From positions 1 through 46,107 of the forward strand of contig NZ_JASJOU010000029.1 of assembly GCF_030068605.1 (NCBI RefSeq): 46,107 nucleotides of DNA, written 5' to 3'. Both the position numbers and the translations under genes were made by a program. The notes below the pieces were generated by a model. The model was not told the DNA's origin. It did no database searches and worked only from the letters and a program-made list of their open reading frames with translations. This stretch comes from Xanthocytophaga agilis. Its GTDB lineage: Bacteria; Bacteroidota; Bacteroidia; Cytophagales; 172606-1. Positions 1,753-21,607 of this stretch are shown here, in pieces (position 1 is the stretch's first letter; the number at the start of each line of letters is the position of its first letter).

Positions 1753-4653
1753 TTATTTTACAATGAGCAATTTACTTCTCAACTGCTGATCACCTGTTTG
1801 AATCACACATAGATATTGTCCCGGAGCTAGTTGCCCTACCGATAGTGTAGACTCTTGCAGTGAATTTTTCTGTACTTCCAGCACTTTTGTACCCATCAGT
1901 GTATAGATACGAACGGTAGCCGGACCGGTTTGTTCAGTCAATGTCCGTATCTGAACGCTTTCTCTGGTTGGATTTGGATACAACGTAAGCAGCTGTGTAT
2001 TTACCTTGTCGCCTGTAAGCAATGTAACCTGACTGGTAACCTGTATCGAGTTAGAGGTAAATACTCCATTGCCTTTTTTATACGTTGTAGCCACTTCTAT
2101 TTCCTGCTGACGATCCTGTTTCCATACTTTCAGATTAAATGGGGTATTGGCCTGCATTTTTTCATTTTCCCAGATAGTTACAATCAGGTTTTCGCCTGTA
2201 TACTGTCCGGCTCCTGCCAGTGTTCCTTCTGTTGTATAGACAGCTACCTCATCCCCTGCTACCAGTACCTTACCAAGAATTTCATTTGGCAACACAAGCA
2301 ATGCATTGTTAGCTGTTGTCGTTACAGGCAAATCGTAGTGACTGGTACTTTTCTCTCTGGCTGCACTTGCTCCTGTTCTCATACCTGCCAGTGATGGATA
2401 GCGAAAGTCAGGAATAGCCTTATTCATCGAAACTTTATAAGCCAAACCAGGTTTCAGTGTACCTATCTGATCAATAGGAGGATTTATAATATGAGAAGGC
2501 AGGTAGTTATAGGCGACTACATTCGCTGATCCTGCCGGATATTCGTTGCTCTGCACAAAGTTAAAGCTGTTCTCAATAGCACCCAATGCAGCTGTAAGTG
2601 AAACCGGATTACTTCCGAAATAAGGTAGAAAATACGGATAGGTAGTATAGGGAATGCTTATAGGAGTTTGCGGGTCAATCTTTTTACCACAAACCGTCAG
2701 TACCTCTTCCTGTGTTACCAATACTTTATACCCTTCCAGGATATTCCAGCTGCCATTACTGATGCCGTTCTGTGGAGCATACAATATCTTGCCTGCGGCA
2801 TCTTTTACCAGAATATTCTGAATAGAACCGAAAATAGTTTTCATAGTTGTATCTGCGGGCTGAACATTTAGTGAAATAAGGTTCCAGCCCTTGTGTAAGG
2901 ATATAACTTGTTGAACACATGGTGCCACTGTGTGTAAGGCAGAAATACTGCTAAGGCCATTGGCTGCATAGCTACCTGCATGCGTGTAAGGACTTGTTGT
3001 AGTGTAGGTTGCCACTACCTCTATTTCTTTCTGGTCTGAAGCACGCCATACTTTCAGTACAAACGATTCACCTGTTGTAAACCCGTTTTTAGGAGTAGCA
3101 GTTGTACCCCAGACATTCAGTACCTGATTGTCTCCTGTCCATTTCACCATTCCTCCATTGACCTTGTTCCCAGCATTGTCAGTGAAGAATACACCAATAT
3201 AATCTCCAACACTCAGCGGACTGCCTTCAATAGAAGAAGTCAGTGTGGCAGGCAGGATAATCAGGTGATTTTCACCTCCTCCAATCACAGGAGTCCAGGG
3301 ACCGTTTGACTCAATCTCAATCGTAACAGGATTATTGGTTAGTGTATCGTTAGGATAAGCAGGGTTGGTTACTTTAGCAGTATATACACCCGCATTTCCC
3401 AGTGTCAGAGACGAAAATACCAGCTTGTTGGTTTGTGTAGTTGCTACCAGTACTGCATTTTTATACCAGTGATAGGTACTTGTCGTAACGGTATCATCTA
3501 TATCCAGATCAATTGTATACGCATCTCCCTGTTTCAACTTGACAGTTTTTGTGGTACCGATTTCGCCCTGGTTATAGCTGTAAAACCGATTGGTTCCGTT
3601 TCCTTTTTTCAGCAGTTTCTCACGGGTAGGTACCAGTGTCAGTAAGTCATCAAAGGTTAGCTGGTTGCCCTGGACAAAAAGTTGTTCCATATTCAGATGA
3701 GAGATATCTGGCAGAGAGGTAAATTTATTATGGGCCAAACGCAGATACTGCATGTCGGGATAGTTAGTCAGATCTGGCAATGAATCCAGTTGATTGCCTC
3801 CACAGGAGATAAAGCCAAGTTTGGTATTGGCTGAAATATCCGGAAACTCAGTGAATTGATTTTGTGAAAAGTCAATTCCCCATAACACAAGATTGTGCGA
3901 TAAATCAGGTAATGAAGTTAGCTGATTGCCATGACATTGTAGCACGTCCAGCTGAGTAAGAGCAGCAAGAGAAGGCAATTGTGTCAGTTGATTGTAGGAT
4001 ACATCCAGTGTAACCAGATTTTTAAAATCGGATAGATCAGGCAGAACGGTTAATTGATTACTGTCGCATTGAATCAATGCCAGACGTGATTTGACAGGCA
4101 ACGAGAATGCAGGAAAAGAGGTAAACTTGTTTTTTCCAAACCTTAGAAAAACCAACTTGGGAAGTGACGATAAGTCTGGCAATGAACTGATCTGATTGGC
4201 AGAGCAATTCACCTCGATCAAAGCTGTATTCTGGGAAAGAGTAGGAAATACAGTGAATTGATTCCGGGAAAAGTCAAGGCTTTTTAAGTTAGTGAGTGGA
4301 GAAAGATCCGGTAAAGAAGTAAGCTGATTGCCACCACAACCCAGAAAATTCAGTCCTGTGAAGTATTGAATGCCTGCCAGATTTGAAATCTGGCGATTGT
4401 AACAGAAAATTGTATCGATAGCGGCGGCTTCCGCAACAATCAACTCACCACTGGAAGTAAGAGTGTGTGGAAACTTGTCATGCAGGTATTGACGGAAGTT
4501 CGCATCCGGAATGGGTACGGTTTGGGCAAACACCGTTTGAGCACTGGCCAAAAACAGAATCATTACACACAAAGCAGCAAAGATCTGTCTGTTTAGCAAC
4601 CGGATCGTATCACTCGTGGTAGAGTAAAAATCTCTCATGTAGTTAGTTTTCAT
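1753..4653 (-). CDS. Large secreted leucine-rich-repeat protein with Ig-like domain and T9SS type A sorting domain
   Basis: This 966-residue predicted surface or secreted protein has a hydrophobic signal segment near residues 22-44, ending FAQT. Residues of about 75-345 hold some ten leucine-rich repeats of the form GNQLTSLPDLS. An Ig-like domain follows (about 365-455, YHWYKNAVLV, NAGVYTAKVTN). Next comes a GDYIGVFF/GFTTGESFVLKVWR domain, a GWNLISLNV segment, and a second copy of the GDEVAVY/FNLKVWK domain. The C-terminus (LLTLYPNPTRESVQI, VRIYTLMGTKVLEV, LAPGQYLCVIQTGDQQLRSKLLIVK) is a typical T9SS type A sorting domain. It lies downstream of the PorP/SprF-like gene, with its own candidate ECF promoter in the 81-bp gap. 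It may act in adhesion; the ligand is unknown. Confidence 0.9.
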   Translation of the reverse strand: MKTNYMRDFYSTTSDTIRLLNRQIFAALCVMILFLASAQTVFAQTVPIPDANFRQYLHDKFPHTLTSSGELIVAEAAAIDTIFCYNRQISNLAGIQYFTGLNFLGCGGNQLTSLPDLSPLTNLKSLDFSRNQFTVFPTLSQNTALIEVNCSANQISSLPDLSSLPKLVFLRFGKNKFTSFPAFSLPVKSRLALIQCDSNQLTVLPDLSDFKNLVTLDVSYNQLTQLPSLAALTQLDVLQCHGNQLTSLPDLSHNLVLWGIDFSQNQFTEFPDISANTKLGFISCGGNQLDSLPDLTNYPDMQYLRLAHNKFTSLPDISHLNMEQLFVQGNQLTFDDLLTLVPTREKLLKKGNGTNRFYSYNQGEIGTTKTVKLKQGDAYTIDLDIDDTVTTSTYHWYKNAVLVATTQTNKLVFSSLTLGNAGVYTAKVTNPAYPNDTLTNNPVTIEIESNGPWTPVIGGGENHLIILPATLTSSIEGSPLSVGDYIGVFFTDNAGNKVNGGMVKWTGDNQVLNVWGTTATPKNGFTTGESFVLKVWRASDQKEIEVVATYTTTSPYTHAGSYAANGLSSISALHTVAPCVQQVISLHKGWNLISLNVQPADTTMKTIFGSIQNILVKDAAGKILYAPQNGISNGSWNILEGYKVLVTQEEVLTVCGKKIDPQTPISIPYTTYPYFLPYFGSNPVSLTAALGAIENSFNFVQSNEYPAGSANVVAYNYLPSHIINPPIDQIGTLKPGLAYKVSMNKAIPDFRYPSLAGMRTGASAAREKSTSHYDLPVTTTANNALLVLPNEILGKVLVAGDEVAVYTTEGTLAGAGQYTGENLIVTIWENEKMQANTPFNLKVWKQDRQQEIEVATTYKKGNGVFTSNSIQVTSQVTLLTGDKVNTQLLTLYPNPTRESVQIRTLTEQTGPATVRIYTLMGTKVLEVQKNSLQESTLSVGQLAPGQYLCVIQTGDQQLRSKLLIVK

Positions 4654-4734: not shown

Positions 4735-5667
4735 TTATTTTTCTTCTTCTTCTCCTTTCTCTGTTATCTTCCTCTTTCTCACCATATAAAAACTAAGTGT
4801 AAACTCATACGAATTAAAGCGGGCCACCAGTCTGTTAGGTACAGGTGCTGTATAGGAAAAACCTGCCTTCACATAGCCACCCAACACAGGCAACTGTTCC
4901 AGTCCTGCCTGAAAAGTAAAATTCTCACGGTACTTCATCGATACTCCTGCCATAAACAACTCATTTAGGACCAGTCCCATAGTACCCTCCCACAAAGTTT
5001 GATAAGCTGGCACATGCCTCATCAGCAAAGCCGGATATAAGCTTACCTGCGAACTAAGAGGAATATGTTTGCGAAGGCTTAGAGTATAATATCGTTTCAA
5101 TCGGGTAGTTTCCTCAATGGGCCTGAGCTTTCCTTCAGTCAGTTGGTTGACAGATACTCCTATATGTCCGTTTTGTTTGTCATATAGCCACAAACCCAGT
5201 CCCGCATCCGGTGTAGTAGCAGATCCGGAAGGACTCACACTGGTTCCAGATACAGTATAGAAGGCGAAGCCTACAGAGGCGCCACTGGCAAGAAATATTT
5301 TTTCGGAAAGGCGAACCTGCAGGCTATACAATGCATACATCCGGTTGCGACTCAGATACTGTCCCTCTTTATCTCCTATAAAATTAAATCCTGCCACATG
5401 GCGCGGGAACTGCTCTTCCTGGTTCTTTGACGATGTAAATTTCAGCGTAGCATTGGCATAATGGGTATAAATATCACTCCACGCATTGGTATTGAATTGT
5501 CTGCCGATATTAACAGCCATATCCGATTGTGTAGAAATGCTGGCAGGATTGATTAGAAAGTAATTGTTACTGAATTGATTAAAGGCAACTGGCACACCAA
5601 TTACCTCCTGGGCATAAGTTTGTATACAGAGCAGAAACAGGACAATACACGCCCAGATTGCCTTCAT
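4735..5667 (-). CDS. PorP/SprF family type IX secretion outer-membrane protein
   Basis: This 310-residue protein has a clear signal peptide (MKAIWACIVLFLLCIQTYAQE) followed by the PorP/SprF pattern: FNQFSNNYFLINPASIS near the N-terminus, NIGRQFN, a series of amphipathic beta strands, VGFAFYTVSG, GLGLWLYDKQNGHIGVSVNQL, and a C-terminal FTLSFYMVRKR strand. The family forms outer-membrane beta barrels that partner particular T9SS cargo proteins carrying type B C-terminal domains. Here it heads a minus-strand cluster with two cargo genes, one with that type of domain, which supports dedicated pairing. The usual family length is about 300-350 residues, so it appears complete. Confidence 0.9.
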   Translation of the reverse strand: MKAIWACIVLFLLCIQTYAQEVIGVPVAFNQFSNNYFLINPASISTQSDMAVNIGRQFNTNAWSDIYTHYANATLKFTSSKNQEEQFPRHVAGFNFIGDKEGQYLSRNRMYALYSLQVRLSEKIFLASGASVGFAFYTVSGTSVSPSGSATTPDAGLGLWLYDKQNGHIGVSVNQLTEGKLRPIEETTRLKRYYTLSLRKHIPLSSQVSLYPALLMRHVPAYQTLWEGTMGLVLNELFMAGVSMKYRENFTFQAGLEQLPVLGGYVKAGFSYTAPVPNRLVARFNSYEFTLSFYMVRKRKITEKGEEEEK

Positions 5668-5715: not shown

Positions 5716-5747
5716 GGTATTACAAATAAAACAATAGAAAGTAACCC
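5716..5747 (-). promoter_or_regulatory. Candidate ECF-sigma promoter of the PorP/SprF-like gene
   Basis: The minus strand shows GGGTTACTTTC, then GTAATACC starting 17 bases after the GGGTTAC box. This is nearly identical in sequence and spacing to the site upstream of the divergent sigma gene. It leaves a leader of about 40 bases before the ATG at 5667. Confidence 0.6.
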
Positions 5748-5830: not shown

Positions 5831-5862
5831 GGGTTACTTTTACTTTTTGTATGTGTAGTACC
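5831..5862 (+). promoter_or_regulatory. Candidate autoregulatory ECF promoter of the sigma gene
   Basis: GGGTTACTTTT at 5831 is followed by GTAGTACC at 5855, with 17 bases between GGGTTAC and GTAGTACC. The second box overlaps the first possible ATG of the sigma gene (5851). That ATG would then lie upstream of the transcription start, and translation more likely begins at the GTG at 5884. Confidence 0.6.
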
Positions 5863-5883
5863 TGTATACAACTACGCCAATTA

Positions 5884-6456
5884 GTGAATTATTCAGACAA
5901 AGAAATACTTCAGGCTATTCGTTCCGGAGAGGATGACAAGGCATTATCAGCCTTGTATAAGAATCTGCTGCCCAAAATAAAGAACCTGATCCGACAAAAT
6001 GGAGGTGGGCAGGATGATGCACTGGATATTTTTCAGGATGCCATTCTGATCTTCTATAAACAGGTAAAGATGAACTCCTTTAATGAAACCTACTCTATTG
6101 CCGGATTTGTCTATACTATAAGTCGCAACCTGTGGATCAATCAGGTAAAACGCAAAAAACGAAGCGTAGAAATAACAGATTCCGAAATTCCGCTGGAACT
6201 GGATGACAACATGCTGACTCAGTTAATGACAAAGGAACGGGAGGATATGGTGGTCAAACTGCTCTCTTCGCTGGGAGAGACCTGCCATCGGTTACTGACG
6301 TATGTTATCTTTCATCGGTTATCGATGAAGGAGATCAGCCAGAAAATGGAGTTTAGTTCAGAAGACGTTGCCAAGACAAAGCATTACAAATGCAAGCAAC
6401 GCCTCATTCAATTGGTAAAAAACACGCCGTATACACAGGAAATACTCAGAGGATGA
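5884..6456 (+). CDS. ECF-type sigma-70 family RNA polymerase sigma factor
   Basis: From the GTG at 5884 this is a 190-residue protein beginning (M)NYSDKEILQAIRSGEDDKALSALY. Region sigma-2 covers roughly residues 20-90 (DALDIFQDAILIFYKQV, FVYTISRNLWINQVKRKKR). Region sigma-4 lies at about 125-185 (CHRLLTYVIFHRLSMKEISQKM, EDVAKTKHYKCKQRL, a helix-turn-helix). The frame is open from an ATG at 5851, but a candidate promoter box overlaps that ATG. The stop overlaps the ATG of the anti-sigma gene (ATGA), a translational coupling typical of sigma/anti-sigma pairs. It probably directs transcription of itself and of the divergent PorP-like and cargo genes. Confidence 0.88.
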   Translation: MNYSDKEILQAIRSGEDDKALSALYKNLLPKIKNLIRQNGGGQDDALDIFQDAILIFYKQVKMNSFNETYSIAGFVYTISRNLWINQVKRKKRSVEITDSEIPLELDDNMLTQLMTKEREDMVVKLLSSLGETCHRLLTYVIFHRLSMKEISQKMEFSSEDVAKTKHYKCKQRLIQLVKNTPYTQEILRG

Positions 6457-7631
6457 ACACAGAAAACGAACGTATTGACTGGATTGAAGCCTATCTTTCA
6501 GATAGCCTGTCACCTGAGCAGAAAGCTGTTTTTACTCGACAACTACAGACAGACCCTACGCTGTCTGAAGAAGTGGAACTCCACCGGATGGCAAATGAAC
6601 TTATTGTAGATCACGCCTTACTTGATCTGAAGGCAAAGATGATCACTCAATACCGACCCCAGTATCAGCAAACCAACTACCTGAGAGGAAACCGAGGTAG
6701 TATCTGGCTGGTTACAGGTATTGTGGTACTTGTGGCATTGGTGGGGAGTGTAGTTTATTTCAAAGACAAATCCACCTCTGGCTCAAAAGAGATAAGTATA
6801 CAACCTATTCCTCAAACGGAAAAACCTGCCTCACTGCCAACTGAGAGTGTACCAGAACTAAGTACATCAAAGCCAAAAGAAGTTCCGGATAACACACCAA
6901 AGAAACCTGTGCCTGAGCATAGTGTAAGTATTGTTAAAAATAATTCGACAAACGCAAAAGATTCAGCGTTGGTGTCTATTCCGATATCAGTTATCCCTAT
7001 CCCTGAGAAGGAATCCGCAAAACCAGTTGAACATCCTGTTACAAAAGAAGGTAGTAGGTATACTCCTTCCAAAATAACACCACCAGCATTCAAACAGCCA
7101 GAAGTAAATTGTGCAGGCATACAATTTACGATAGCTGTTCAGACAGAGAAAAGCTGCTCAGATGGGTCTTCGGGAAAGATTATCTGTGACCTGGCCTCGA
7201 TAAAAGGCGGCACACCTCCGTATCAGCTTTCTATCAATAAAGGAGCTTCCTTTCGGAAAACACGTCAGTTTGAATACCTCTCCCCCGGCATATATTACCT
7301 GACGATCAAAGATGCCAGTGGCTGCCAGTATACATTGGCAGAAGGCATTGAAATCCAGGCCAAAGATTGTACTGCACCCCAGGAATATGCTTTTTCCCCC
7401 GACTTGGGTCAGGTATGGACCTTTCCGTTTGGGAATGATACAAAGGGTACCCTACAGATCTTTAACAGAGAGGGAGTACTGGTGTATCGCACAGAGATTC
7501 ATAATGGATTTCCGGGCGAATGGAACGGGCAAGGGAATCAGGGGATACCTGTACCTATGGGACACTATCGGTTCTTGTTTGATGAAGGAAAAGGAAAGCA
7601 GACACAGGGAAGTGTTTCTGTATTGAGATAA
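6453..7631 (+). CDS. Membrane anti-sigma-like protein with a T9SS-cargo-like periplasmic domain
   Basis: This 392-residue protein starts at the ATG overlapping the sigma stop; the open frame extends further upstream, but only inside the sigma gene. Residues 1-82 are a short cytoplasmic part (WIEAYLSDSLSPEQKAVF, the usual anti-sigma start). Residues 83-103 are one membrane helix. Residues of about 105-215 are a Pro/Ser/Lys-rich linker. Residues 220-306 resemble a SprB-type repeat (IKGGTPPYQLSI, LSPGIYYLTIKDASGCQY). Residues 310-392 resemble a gliding-motility C-terminal domain (LQIFNREGVLVYRTE, EWNGQGNQGIPVPMGHYRF) but lack the usual PNGDG. The order and spacing match the cargo protein encoded at 519-1697. 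It probably holds the sigma factor inactive and senses something connected with cargo export. Confidence 0.8.
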   Translation: MNTENERIDWIEAYLSDSLSPEQKAVFTRQLQTDPTLSEEVELHRMANELIVDHALLDLKAKMITQYRPQYQQTNYLRGNRGSIWLVTGIVVLVALVGSVVYFKDKSTSGSKEISIQPIPQTEKPASLPTESVPELSTSKPKEVPDNTPKKPVPEHSVSIVKNNSTNAKDSALVSIPISVIPIPEKESAKPVEHPVTKEGSRYTPSKITPPAFKQPEVNCAGIQFTIAVQTEKSCSDGSSGKIICDLASIKGGTPPYQLSINKGASFRKTRQFEYLSPGIYYLTIKDASGCQYTLAEGIEIQAKDCTAPQEYAFSPDLGQVWTFPFGNDTKGTLQIFNREGVLVYRTEIHNGFPGEWNGQGNQGIPVPMGHYRFLFDEGKGKQTQGSVSVLR

Positions 7632-8045: not shown

Positions 8046-8189
8046 AGACAAAAAAACTACTCTAAAAAACTTATCTCTACTAAATCTATAGATTTTATAA
8101 ATATTTCTACTAACTTGCTGCCGCACAGACAATCAGCTAGTGTATTTTTTAAATGCTTAGCCAAAATCTCAACCCTAAAAAGAAATACA

Positions 8190-10736
8190 ATGAAAAAATC
8201 ATTATTGGTAACTATCCTCATTTTCATAGGGATAGCCAATGTATTTGCTCAGGAAACCATTTCCGGATTTGTTAAAAACAGCAAAGGCGGAGGCGTAGTT
8301 GGCGCCAATGTAACAATCAAAGGAACCAACACCCATGCAGCCGCTGATAGCACGGGAGCCTTTAAAATAACTGCCAGCAAAGTTCCTTTTACACTTCGTA
8401 TCAGTTCTGTCGGTTATCGTTCCCTGGAGGTTCAGGTAGCTGAAGTATCCGCAACCCCACTGGAAATAACCCTTGTGGATGACAATATCCTAAACGAAGT
8501 AGTCGTGACCGCCCGCAGACGCAGCGAAACAGCGCAGGAAGTCCCTATTCCTATCTCTGTAGTTGGTGGAGCAGTAGTGGAAGAAACGGGTGCATTTAAC
8601 GTGAACCGTGTAAAGGAACTGGTACCTACCGTACAGCTATATTCCTCCAATCCACGTAATACGACCCTTAACATTCGTGGAGTGGGTTCAACCTTCGGAC
8701 TTACCAATGACGGTATTGACCCAGGTGTAGGTTTTTATGTAGATGGAGTTTACTTTGCTCGTCCGGCAGCAACTACGCTGGACTTTATTGACATCGAACG
8801 CATTGAAGTATTACGTGGCCCACAGGGAACGCTCTTTGGAAAAAATACAACAGCCGGTGCGTTTAATATTACCACCCGTAAACCCAGCTTTACACCTGGC
8901 GCCAGCTTTGAGGTCAGCTATGGAAATTACGGCTACATTCAGGCAAAAAGTGCGGTGACAGGGCCTCTGGGTAAAAAGTTTGCTGGTCGTTTATCGTTTT
9001 CAGGAACACAGCGGGATGGTACAATCTATAATGTAGTCTCTGAGAAACACATAAATGATCTGAACAACCTCGGTTTCCGGGCACAATTGCTTTATATCCC
9101 AAGTTCTACCGTACAGATTACACTGACTGGTGACGCATCTCGGCAACGACCAGAAGGCTATGCACAGGTTGTAGCAGGAGTAGTACAAACTCAGCGTGCG
9201 GCTTATCGTCAATTTGATCAGATTATTGCAGATCTGAACTATCAGCTGCCAAGCCGCAATCCGTTTGACAGGAAGATAGACCATAATACAACCTGGCGTT
9301 CTGGCAATGATCTGGGGGGCGTTGCATTGAATGTGGAAGCTTCAATCGGATCAGGTACACTGACTTCCACTACAGCATGGAGATACTGGAACTGGGACCC
9401 ATCCAATGACCGTGACTTTACAGGGCTTCCTGTATTGACATTGTCACAGGCAACTTCCAAACACCAGCAGTGGACACAGGAGGTACGTTATGCAGGTAAT
9501 GTGACGTCTAATCTGAGTGGTGTCATTGGTGCCTTTGTCATTGGACAAGACCTGAAAACAGATCCTTACCACATTGAAGAATCTGGTGCCGCACAGTGGC
9601 GTTTCTCTCAGAGTACTACCAGTGAAAAATGGAAAACCCCTGGCCTCTTTGATGGGTATGGTATAAAGACCTATTCCCGACTGAAAACTTTTGGCGCTGC
9701 CGTATTCGGACAATTGGATTGGGCTATTACTCCGACCATCCATGTGCTTCCTGGCTTGCGTTATAATTATGATCAGAAAGAGGTTGACTTCAACCGCCAG
9801 ACCTATGGAGGATTACAGACAGATGATCCAGACCTGATAGCCTTAAAGAGACTGGTATACACAGATCAGGCATTTAAGGCAGATGTGGATGAGTCTAACC
9901 TATCAGGTCAACTGACAGTAGCTTACAGACCTAATAAAGGTATCAATGCTTTCGTGACTTACTCAACCAGCTACAAACCGGTAGGGGTTAACCTGGGAGG
10001 CTTGCCTACTGACAAGGGTGAAGTACTAACTGATCTGGCACGAATCAAACCGGAATATGTAAATCACGTAGAAATCGGTATCAAGACAGCTCCCACCTCT
10101 AAATCATCACTAAATCTGGTATTCCATAACACGGATATCCGTGATTACCAGACTCAGGTACAAACAGCAGAAGTGGGTGTAAACCGGGGCTATCTGGCTA
10201 ATGCAGATAAGGTGCGTGTGTATGGTATTGAGCTGGATGGAAATATTCGGGTAAGTTCTTATTTCTCTCTGTATGGTGCAGCTGCCTACACCATAGGAAA
10301 ATACATTTCCTTCCCGAATGCTCCTGTACCTCTGGAAGAAACAGGTGCATCGTCTTCCTTTAAAGATATTTCTGGTGGAGAGTTACCTGGTATTTCCAAG
10401 TGGGCAGGATCTGTAGGTGGAGAACTTAGTACAGGATCAAAACGCCTCCTTAACCAGGCAGGTAAATTCTTTATCGCAGCAGATGGATATTTTCGTTCTT
10501 CGTTCTCTTCGAGCCCTTCACCTTCCCGTTATCTTAACATTGACGGATATTCCTTGTTAAATGCCAGAGCAGGGTTCCGGGCAACAGATGGATTATCTGT
10601 TTTTATCTGGTCACGCAACTTACTTAACAAAAATTATTTCGAACAACTACTTCCTGCTGCCGGTAACGCAGGTCATTATGCAGCTGTACTGGGTGATCCT
10701 GCTACATATGGCATTACGTTACGTTACTCTTTATAA
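8190..10736 (+). CDS. TonB-dependent outer-membrane receptor with CarboxypepD_reg-like domain
   Basis: The ATG at 8190 starts a clear signal peptide (MKKSLLVTILIFIGIANVFAQ) and gives 848 residues; the frame is open 25 codons further upstream without a sensible start. Residues of about 22-110 form a CarboxypepD_reg-like domain (ISGFVKNSKGGGVVGANVTIKGT). A plug domain follows (NEVVVTARRR, VGFYVDGVYFARP, IERIEVLRGPQGTLFGKNTTAGAFNITT). A 22-strand type barrel ends in FIWSRNLLNKNYFEQL and a final aromatic strand (YGITLRYSL). No SusD gene is adjacent, so this is more like a siderophore or small-ligand receptor than a glycan SusC; the substrate is unknown. A strong terminator follows. Confidence 0.93.
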   Translation: MKKSLLVTILIFIGIANVFAQETISGFVKNSKGGGVVGANVTIKGTNTHAAADSTGAFKITASKVPFTLRISSVGYRSLEVQVAEVSATPLEITLVDDNILNEVVVTARRRSETAQEVPIPISVVGGAVVEETGAFNVNRVKELVPTVQLYSSNPRNTTLNIRGVGSTFGLTNDGIDPGVGFYVDGVYFARPAATTLDFIDIERIEVLRGPQGTLFGKNTTAGAFNITTRKPSFTPGASFEVSYGNYGYIQAKSAVTGPLGKKFAGRLSFSGTQRDGTIYNVVSEKHINDLNNLGFRAQLLYIPSSTVQITLTGDASRQRPEGYAQVVAGVVQTQRAAYRQFDQIIADLNYQLPSRNPFDRKIDHNTTWRSGNDLGGVALNVEASIGSGTLTSTTAWRYWNWDPSNDRDFTGLPVLTLSQATSKHQQWTQEVRYAGNVTSNLSGVIGAFVIGQDLKTDPYHIEESGAAQWRFSQSTTSEKWKTPGLFDGYGIKTYSRLKTFGAAVFGQLDWAITPTIHVLPGLRYNYDQKEVDFNRQTYGGLQTDDPDLIALKRLVYTDQAFKADVDESNLSGQLTVAYRPNKGINAFVTYSTSYKPVGVNLGGLPTDKGEVLTDLARIKPEYVNHVEIGIKTAPTSKSSLNLVFHNTDIRDYQTQVQTAEVGVNRGYLANADKVRVYGIELDGNIRVSSYFSLYGAAAYTIGKYISFPNAPVPLEETGASSSFKDISGGELPGISKWAGSVGGELSTGSKRLLNQAGKFFIAADGYFRSSFSSSPSPSRYLNIDGYSLLNARAGFRATDGLSVFIWSRNLLNKNYFEQLLPAAGNAGHYAAVLGDPATYGITLRYSL

Positions 10737-20203: not shown

Positions 20204-21607
20204 TTAGTCAAATGTGACCTTACAGGTAGGCAACCAGGATTTAATCTGCTCTTTTTCCTCTGCTGGAAGCGGATTATTTTCCAATGATAATTCCTGTAAG
20301 TGGGTCAATGCCGCGATTTCTTCTCCAATATGTAGTAGTTCATTGTTTCGTAATGACAGCTTTTCCAGTTTAACCAGGCAACTGATCTCAACAGGAACAC
20401 TGGTTAACTGATTCCTCCTGGCTTCCAGATGGGTAAGCTTTTTCAGCTTTTTTATCGCTGAAGGTAGTTCTTTCAGCAAGTTTTTATCCAAATGGAGTCC
20501 TGTAAGTCTGGTTAACTTTCCTATTTCTGATGGAAGTTCACTCAGTTGATTTGTACTTATATTCAACCAGGTTAGCTTACGTAGCTTTCCTATTTCCTTA
20601 GGAAGCGAACTAAACTGATTATCGGGTATACTTAGGCTGGTAAGTTGACTCAGCATTCCTATCTCAGCAGGTAAGGAAATCAATTTATTACTTTCCAGGG
20701 ACAGTTTTGTAAGTTTGGTAAGTTTGCCAATTGTTGAGGGTAATTCAGCCAGATGTGCACGACTTACATTCAACTCTGTTAGATTCTTTAAATCAGGTAT
20801 TGCAGAAGGAAAAACAACCAACTTGTTTCTGTCTAAATTTAAAGACTCAAGTCCGGTTAAATTAGCTATTTCAGAAGGAATAGCAGTTAGTTTATTGTAA
20901 CTGATCCATAATGTTTTCAGCTTAGTCAGATTTCCTATTTCTGTGGGAAGCAGTGTTAGTTTATTATGGCTTATATCTAAAGTCACAAGTTCAGTCAGGT
21001 TTCCTATTTCCTTAGGTAGTGAAATGAGTTGATTCGAACCTACATACAGCGTTACAAGTTCACTTAGATTACCTATTTCCTGTGATAGTGAACGGAACTG
21101 ATTCCCACTTAAGCCTAAATATGTCAGCTGAGTAAGATTGCCAATCTCCGCTGGCAATGACTGTAACTTATTAGAGCTTAGTTTTAAGGTTAAAAGACAA
21201 GTAAGTTTTCCAATTTCAACAGGCAAGTGCGTAATCTGGTTATCGGACAAGTCCAGATGAATCAGATTCCTAAGCATTCCTATCTCTGCAGGTACTTCCG
21301 TTGCCTGACTACGGCAAATGCTTAATTCCTGCAGATTTATCAGATATTTAATTTGTGGAGGAATAACCTTCCAGTCACAATCTGGCAAACTCACTATTTT
21401 TTGCGAAGAAACAAACTGGAATTTTTCCGCCAAAGTCAATACTGTTTTTATTGGAAACCAACTACATACCAACTCAATATCCCGTGTCAATTCTTCGTAG
21501 TTCATTTGTAACGACTGCGCAATAACCAATCCAAGCTCTATACTTTCCAGTTGACCAGAAAATAATAGTCTCATTAAGTTTTCTTCTTCGCTGTGTTCTG
21601 ATAACAT
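20204..21607 (-). CDS. Leucine-rich-repeat protein, cytoplasmic type
   Basis: This 467-residue protein has no signal peptide. After a helical N-terminal region of about 75 residues (LSGQLES-like, ELVCSWFPIKTVLTLAEKF), about sixteen leucine-rich repeats of 23 residues fill the rest (LPAEIGNLTQLTYLGLSGNQF and close variants). It ends LENNPLPAEEKEQIKSWLP, a common LRR cap. This repeat type is the one also found at the start of Roco proteins and in many Bacteroidota LRR-only proteins, thought to bind other proteins. It lies 62 bp downstream of the M1 peptidase gene on the same strand and may share its transcript. The function is unknown. Confidence 0.88.
   Translation of the reverse strand: MLSEHSEEENLMRLLFSGQLESIELGLVIAQSLQMNYEELTRDIELVCSWFPIKTVLTLAEKFQFVSSQKIVSLPDCDWKVIPPQIKYLINLQELSICRSQATEVPAEIGMLRNLIHLDLSDNQITHLPVEIGKLTCLLTLKLSSNKLQSLPAEIGNLTQLTYLGLSGNQFRSLSQEIGNLSELVTLYVGSNQLISLPKEIGNLTELVTLDISHNKLTLLPTEIGNLTKLKTLWISYNKLTAIPSEIANLTGLESLNLDRNKLVVFPSAIPDLKNLTELNVSRAHLAELPSTIGKLTKLTKLSLESNKLISLPAEIGMLSQLTSLSIPDNQFSSLPKEIGKLRKLTWLNISTNQLSELPSEIGKLTRLTGLHLDKNLLKELPSAIKKLKKLTHLEARRNQLTSVPVEISCLVKLEKLSLRNNELLHIGEEIAALTHLQELSLENNPLPAEEKEQIKSWLPTCKVTFD

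Follow-up and report, generated by a model that had tools for sequence, protein, structure and literature searches.

A stretch of 46,107 nucleotides from Xanthocytophaga agilis (contig NZ_JASJOU010000029.1, positions 1 to 46,107; hereafter the window) encodes a putative anti-sigma factor whose last two domains resemble those of a cargo of the type IX secretion system (T9SS). The locus raises the question of what a regulator anchored in the inner membrane could do with the domains of a surface protein. The FecI-FecR-FecA gene cluster combines an extracytoplasmic function (ECF) sigma factor with an inner-membrane anti-sigma factor that reads an outer-membrane protein through its periplasmic domain, and TonB-dependent transducers are an outer-membrane input for ECF signalling. 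The locus studied here resembles that arrangement in its ECF sigma factor, its inner-membrane anti-sigma factor with a periplasmic domain, and its clustered genes; it differs in that the partner would be a PorP-like carrier and its exported cargo, not a TonB-dependent receptor. How Bacteroidota sense the export and mounting of a given surface protein has no account in the literature that we examined. No anti-sigma factor with a T9SS C-terminal domain (CTD) appeared in the titles and abstract beginnings searched, subscription papers and preprints being outside the scope of that search. Papers are cited below by their PubMed Central accessions.

Anatomy of the putative anti-sigma factor and its likeness to cargo

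The gene in question (6453–7631, forward strand) encodes 392 amino acids and overlaps by 4 nt the end of a gene for an ECF sigma factor (5851–6456, forward strand; Pfam Sigma70_r2 4.7e-8, Sigma70_ECF 9.2e-5). AlphaFold2, run on an alignment of 17 diverse sequences, predicted a cytoplasmic helical domain at residues 1–67 (6453–6653; helices 3–15, 21–33 and 35–67), a membrane helix at residues 84–104 (6702–6764), and a disordered linker at about residues 105–215 (6765–7097), with a predicted local distance difference test score (pLDDT) below 50 at residues 103–215. These were followed by two confident beta domains from about residue 222 to 392. The first is SprB-like (about residues 220–306; 7110–7370), with a weak match of residues 228–265 to Pfam SprB (16.8 bits, below the cut-off of 28). 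The second resembles a type B CTD (about residues 307–392; 7371–7628), and its residues 330–388 match Pfam CHU_C with an E-value of 1e-6 (29.2 bits, cut-off 27). Among the 17 anti-sigma factors of alignment A4, CHU_C was matched in all 17 and SprB in 11 (E ≤ 0.01). The layout of one membrane helix, a linker, a SprB-like domain and a CTD, which had been proposed in a preliminary description of this DNA, was borne out by Pfam and AlphaFold2.

The product looks like an ECF anti-sigma factor, a label that we base on its position, on its membrane-anchored helical domain, and on an N-terminal domain that is common to sigma-adjacent genes in control loci. Named anti-sigma models match the family weakly (NF052375 in two and zf-HC2 in one of 17 members). 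The Pfam and NCBIfam searches gave no match to the FecR domain in the anti-sigma factors, and membership of the FecR family was rejected on this ground. The most hydrophobic 19-residue window had a mean of at least 1.6 in 59 of 75 homologues and of at least 1.4 in 71. No signal peptide was seen in the anti-sigma factor of the window, where a helical N-terminus leads to the helix at 84–104; no dedicated predictor was run. The linker from the membrane to the first beta domain was 85–128 residues long in 70 SprB-bearing homologues (median 98.5) and 103–130 residues long in five without SprB, so that its length is kept across homologues while its residues are not conserved.

As judged by sequence comparison, the last two domains are homologues, in the same linear order, of those in a cargo that bears a SprB-like domain and a type-B-like CTD (CHU_C 8.1e-8, above the cut-off). 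The cargo is encoded at 519–1697 on the reverse strand, a point missing from the preliminary description. A phmmer search among 872 open reading frames (ORFs) aligned anti-sigma residues 206–377 with cargo residues 209–380 (E 4.4e-13), and profile-profile alignment with hhalign placed residues 218–392 against cargo residues 226–392 over 159 columns, with a probability of 98.8% and an E-value of 7.7e-17. The earlier claim that the periplasmic part holds the same two modules in the same order as the cargo therefore stands. Both CTDs are called type-B-like by homology because NCBIfam TIGR04131, the type B model, scored below its cut-off of 35 bits in each (13.5 bits in the anti-sigma factor and 27.8 bits in the cargo). 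Both AlphaFold2 models end in immunoglobulin-like (Ig-like) beta domains, and each had PorU (6za2) and GhpA fragments among its first ten PDB matches. This agreement with a shared fold carries little weight, since unrelated Ig proteins also match in large numbers, the TM-scores are low, and the cargo model (overall mean pLDDT 52.5) is reliable in roughly the last 150 residues only.

A defining feature of T9SS type B CTD cargo is a PNGDG-type motif where the CTD begins. With identical patterns applied to both proteins, the strict form P[ND]GDG was absent from all 75 anti-sigma factors and present in 43 of the 75 cargos; a looser form gave none and 48, and the loosest, P[ND]x[DE], two and 60. 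Near the same place, 29 of the 75 anti-sigma factors and none of the cargos carried [FY]xPxx(G)(E/Q)xW; for the looser P..(G/E/D)..W the counts were 50 and none. The motif that the preliminary description had reported as lost is therefore replaced by another, and has not merely decayed. The CHU_C-matching CTD, the SprB-like domain and the adjacent PorP-like gene recall the known pairs of type B cargo and carrier, SprB-SprF and PG1035-PorP (PMC9143113, PMC12618676). The cytoplasmic domain and the membrane anchor, together with the lack of a visible signal peptide and of PNGDG, set the protein apart from such cargo, and we rejected its identity as an ordinary cargo on these grounds.

The conserved tether also invites comparison with the Dma family of Bacteroides (PMC13088901), which has an N-terminal anti-sigma domain, a single helix, a long disordered tether and a C-terminus directed to the outer membrane, and whose member Dma2 likewise has an ECF sigma factor encoded next door. 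Dma proteins carry their own C-terminal beta-barrel. The anti-sigma factor studied here has two beta domains matching SprB and CHU_C and no such barrel, which excludes it from the Dma family; the barrel, PorP, is the product of a neighbouring gene. Given the similar plan and the kept tether length, the CTD might still cross the outer membrane, by export or by threading, with the N-terminus remaining in the inner membrane, giving a two-membrane tether like that of Dma. We consider this improbable, since PNGDG is absent and each of five conserved motifs in the type B CTD of Flavobacterium johnsoniae SprB is needed for secretion (PMC12618676), PNGDG presumably being one of the five.

A recurrent four-gene module

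To place the anti-sigma factor among its neighbours, we read the flanks of 109 loci and the window with home-made profiles. Among 88 anti-sigma factors with a CTD, 87 had an adjacent sigma gene and 84 had a PorP gene within 4 kb; a CTD cargo lay no more than 5 kb away in 81 cases, and all three were present in 79. By sequence, this is a recurrent module of four genes, encoding an ECF sigma factor, a CTD-bearing anti-sigma factor, a CTD cargo (often a leucine-rich repeat, or LRR, protein) and a PorP/SprF carrier. The suggestion that such anti-sigma genes would recur beside porP and CTD cargo genes in other genomes was thereby confirmed. Nine modules were incomplete; six of these lie at contig ends (L040, L046, L084, L085, L087 and L114), and at L052, which has no type B cargo, a contig end truncates an LRR giant.

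We also chose loci by the sigma factor alone, leaving the anti-sigma factor out of the choice, and took the best 80 of 211 sigma relatives. PorP was present at all 16 recognised CTD anti-sigma factors and a cargo at 13 of them, many of these 16 loci being already in the first set. PorP was also present at three of 59 anti-sigma factors without a recognised CTD (L149, L150 and L153), which look like altered copies of the module; L153 is frame-shifted. The remaining five of the 80 loci had neither a recognised anti-sigma factor nor PorP.

In 71 of 75 modules the sigma reading frame abuts or overlaps that of the anti-sigma factor. Otherwise the gene order varies, with PorP mostly divergent and sometimes collinear, and with the cargo on either side. 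At two loci from outside the order (L220 and L221), PorP, cargo, sigma and anti-sigma run in one direction with all four genes present. Because the order varies and these two genomes hold the full set, functional coupling of the module genes is likely. The CTD of the anti-sigma factor was kept where SprB was lost (L143, L157 and L120–L122). Cargos differ in their outer domains (LRR_4 in eight and Laminin_G_3 in three of 14), and 11 of 14 cargos matched CHU_C at E ≤ 0.01.

An ordinary anti-sigma factor could also have gained a CTD through domain shuffling and have no functional tie to PorP or cargo. Related anti-sigma domains do bear quite different outer parts: among ten scanned, two have a trypsin-like protease and two have a cytochrome c domain with TonB_C. 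The near-complete linkage of CTD and PorP across differing gene orders, and the retention of the CTD where SprB was lost, make this explanation very improbable.

The window anti-sigma factor had a homologue of 85% identity in one relative among the 59 included in a protein search. This search was joined by a profile search of 291 genomes of the order, in which six candidates were scored per genome. Full-length homologues were found in families f1, f15, f16 and f20, and shorter ones in f14 and f18. The number of full-length copies per genome ranged from 1 to 11 in 12 genomes for which nearly all candidates were scored (G103, 11; G055, 10; G153, 9; G065, 6; G078 and G021, 5 each; G090, 4; G037, 3; G129 and G068, 2 each; G000 and G001, 1 each). 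Outside the order, at least two full-length cases (G318 and G587) were found among 395 genomes of the class, with five candidates scored in each. Named holders include Chryseosolibacter histidini, metagenome-assembled genomes (MAGs) of Sporocytophaga, and MAGs labelled Cytophagaceae, Chitinophagaceae and Cytophagales. At L055, the CTD anti-sigma gene (8326–9276, reverse strand) has no SprB domain and its sigma gene is present. The trypsin-like protease follows the anti-sigma domain at L173 (7566–8651) and L206 (7519–8634), and cytochrome c with the TonB C-terminal domain follows it at L177 (7572–10229) and L219 (7606–10554).

A separate group of PorP carriers and its co-variation with the module

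The PorP/SprF-family carrier of the window (4735–5667, reverse strand; PF11751 E 1.8e-27 and TIGR03519 4e-26, both above cut-off) belongs to the group of module PorPs. In a FastTree phylogeny of 101 PorPs, comprising 78 from modules and 23 others, the best split placed 75 of the 78 module PorPs on one side with none of the 23 others (support 1.0). The three module PorPs outside the group are those of L120–L122, and their placement looks like a second recruitment or a change of partner. These three loci are collinear, with sigma, a CTD anti-sigma factor without SprB, a CTD protein and PorP. At 20 other PorP loci, namely 15 of 15 non-module loci in G078 and five of six in G000, neither such a sigma factor nor such an anti-sigma factor was found within about 3 kb; many other PorP loci of these two genomes are adjoined by a CTD protein, as ordinary carriers are. 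In G078, a PorP lies within about 1 kb of each of the five full-length anti-sigma factors.

Unlike ordinary type B carriers, the module PorPs mostly lack a C-terminal tail. Past the last aligned strand, their median tail is 2 residues long with a cysteine in one of 78, vs a median of 18 residues and a cysteine in 12 of 23 for the others. The window PorP has no cysteine in its last 45 residues, unlike the periplasmic C-tail of SprF. A study of F. johnsoniae reports that a pair of cysteines in the SprF tail bonds GldK, and only once SprB has been exported and loaded (PMC12635249). By analogy, the module carriers seem to have no connection to the gliding track, and in a related carrier the periplasmic side is already known as a site where loading is sensed.

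This grouping bears on the idea that the CTD is read by the SprA translocon or the GldK/PorK ring, so that the anti-sigma factor would report overall secretion activity. Such a T9SS load sensor, an idea that would fit the CHU_C-like domain in all 17 anti-sigma factors scanned, has a parallel in the PorA-PorY-PorX-SigP pathway of Porphyromonas gingivalis, where a CTD-bearing surface protein, PorA, feeds a T9SS-tied ECF sigma pathway (PMC7712824). PorA is a surface CTD protein thought to act through a two-component system, whereas here the CTD lies within the putative anti-sigma factor itself. A load sensor would need no private PorP for each copy, yet the module PorPs group apart and a genome may hold as many as 11 copies (G103); we therefore give this explanation little chance. 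Since the module PorPs form their own group, and since type B CTDs are reported to pair with a cognate carrier (PMC12618676), the module's own PorP is a likelier partner of the anti-sigma factor than the general secretion machine.

Co-variation within the module was examined with partial Mantel tests on distances beyond the signal of the sigma factor and the anti-sigma N-terminal domain, in 75 complete modules and in 42 left after thinning. The anti-sigma CTD correlated with PorP (r 0.28) and with the cargo CTD (0.36) over the 75 modules (0 of 500 permutations), and at 0.32 and 0.38, respectively, over the thinned 42 (0 of 1000 permutations). The cargo CTD and PorP correlated at 0.48 over 75 modules and 0.23 over 42. 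These sequence distances support joint evolution of the set and do not single out direct contact.

The closer correlation with the cargo CTD than with PorP, at both sample sizes, speaks for a decoy or competitor, as the preliminary description proposed. Piled-up unexported cargo would displace the anti-sigma factor from one site on the carrier and so alter sigma activity. Such a housekeeping loop would keep the supply of carrier and cargo in step and would convey no signal from outside; it is one version of a reading in which the anti-sigma factor docks on the carrier. The homology of the two CTDs agrees with it, as does the reported need for type B cargo and carrier in matching amounts (PMC12618676). 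The replacement of PNGDG in the anti-sigma factors (0 of 75) means that the contacts of their CTD may differ from those of the cargo, and the varied outer domains of the cargos fit an outside sensor at least equally well. We regard the decoy as unlikely.

A proposed trans-envelope signalling route

The sigma operon is preceded by a promoter-like element, GTTAC-N16-TGTA (5833–5857, forward strand), which recurs with identical spacing ahead of porP (5721–5745, reverse strand). The strict pattern had one further match in the window, inside the LRR gene. Upstream of sigma, 36 of the 75 modules carry TTAC-N16/17-[TC]GTA, against a mean of 1.0 and a maximum of 3 after shuffling, and with the two patterns tried the count was 35 or 36 of 75 (shuffled means 0.5 and 1.0). 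Of the 36 listed matches, 26 stand 30–40 nt from the start of the sigma ORF. Most sigma homologues begin about 10–15 residues after the listed start at 5851; because of this, and because the element overlaps that start, the true start is probably some 30–45 nt downstream. As far as sequence can tell, the shared element suggests sigma control of porP for the window alone, because few regions of the family carry it ahead of porP (counted below). Sigma control of the cargo through the TTAC element was rejected, as the five of 75 cargos with a match (shuffled mean 0.7, maximum 3) are too few.

Taken as a working model, the anti-sigma factor would act as a sensor across the cell envelope, docking on the PorP carrier of its own module and signalling whether that carrier is loaded with cargo, a reading about which our belief and our doubt are evenly matched. 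The steps that follow are inferred, from the binding of sigma and the docking on PorP to the nature of the signal, its direction, and the use of the element by sigma. The N-terminal domain would hold the ECF sigma factor in the cytoplasm, the single helix would cross the inner membrane, and the flexible linker of about 100 residues would span the periplasm. The SprB and CTD module would then touch its dedicated PorP-like barrel from the periplasm, and that barrel would collect a CTD cargo, often an LRR protein, and hold it on the cell surface. The state of the carrier (empty, carrying cargo, or carrying cargo that has bound a ligand at the surface) would determine if the anti-sigma factor keeps or releases sigma, and released sigma would transcribe the operon that encodes it as well as, in the window, porP.

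Several observations weigh against the docking model. SprB-SprF binding is thought to take place at the cell surface, whereas the anti-sigma CTD should be periplasmic. Some loci depart from the linkage: L112 has PorP and no CTD cargo; the CTD anti-sigma gene of L055 had no PorP or cargo match across 17 kb of a 1-Mb contig; L149 and L150 (Sporocytophaga) keep PorP and a CTD protein beside an anti-sigma factor that shows SprB and no CTD match; at L217 a CTD protein is encoded close to an anti-sigma factor that has no CTD, and PorP is missing; and among 18 loci of the first set with a non-CTD anti-sigma factor, one, the frame-shifted L113, has PorP and cargo. Because modules share ancestry, and some nearly duplicate one another, the linkage counts and the Mantel tests do not amount to independent trials. 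The correlations themselves are of modest size, and with the cargo CTD held constant the correlation of anti-sigma CTD and PorP fell to 0.13, a value reached by nine of 500 permutations. A co-variation of the SprB domains of anti-sigma factor and cargo was dropped, as it exceeded all permutations at 75 modules and was reached by 129 of 1000 after thinning. The argument from the PorP tail is one of analogy, because the Cys-X-Cys tail motif of F. johnsoniae occurs in none of the 78 module or 23 comparison PorPs and the counts of a cysteine within the last 40 residues lie closer together (13 of 78 vs 11 of 23). The element was found ahead of porP in six of 75 regions (shuffled maximum 4), and it was first noticed, in a dyad count, in the same 75 regions later used for counting.

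Within the window, the cargo gene lies beyond porP and adjoins a gene for an LRR protein with a type A sorting domain (1753–4653, reverse strand; LRR_4 4.1e-26, Por_Secre_tail 4e-11). A domain of about 130 amino acids in the latter (residues about 452–581) is also found in the adjoining cargo. A second LRR protein of 467 amino acids (20204–21607, reverse strand) resembles the LRR part of the first. Downstream of the anti-sigma gene, a TonB-dependent receptor (8115–10736, forward strand) with CarbopepD_reg_2, plug and barrel domains apparently stands outside the module; it was left out as a partner of the anti-sigma factor, the recurrent neighbours being PorP and cargo.

For the Cytophagales and a few relatives, we put forward, with slightly more doubt than belief, that a private PorP and its surface protein form a receptor that is read by an anti-sigma factor with a non-exportable copy of the cargo CTD, with up to about eleven such channels in one cell. 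If this holds true, each pair of carrier and cargo would have its own gene switch, and the existence of a group of PorP-like genes that lack the usual tail would be accounted for. The module would add a further outer-membrane input for ECF signalling, beside TonB-dependent transducers and the barrels of Dma, and would represent surface signalling built from the parts of a secretion system.

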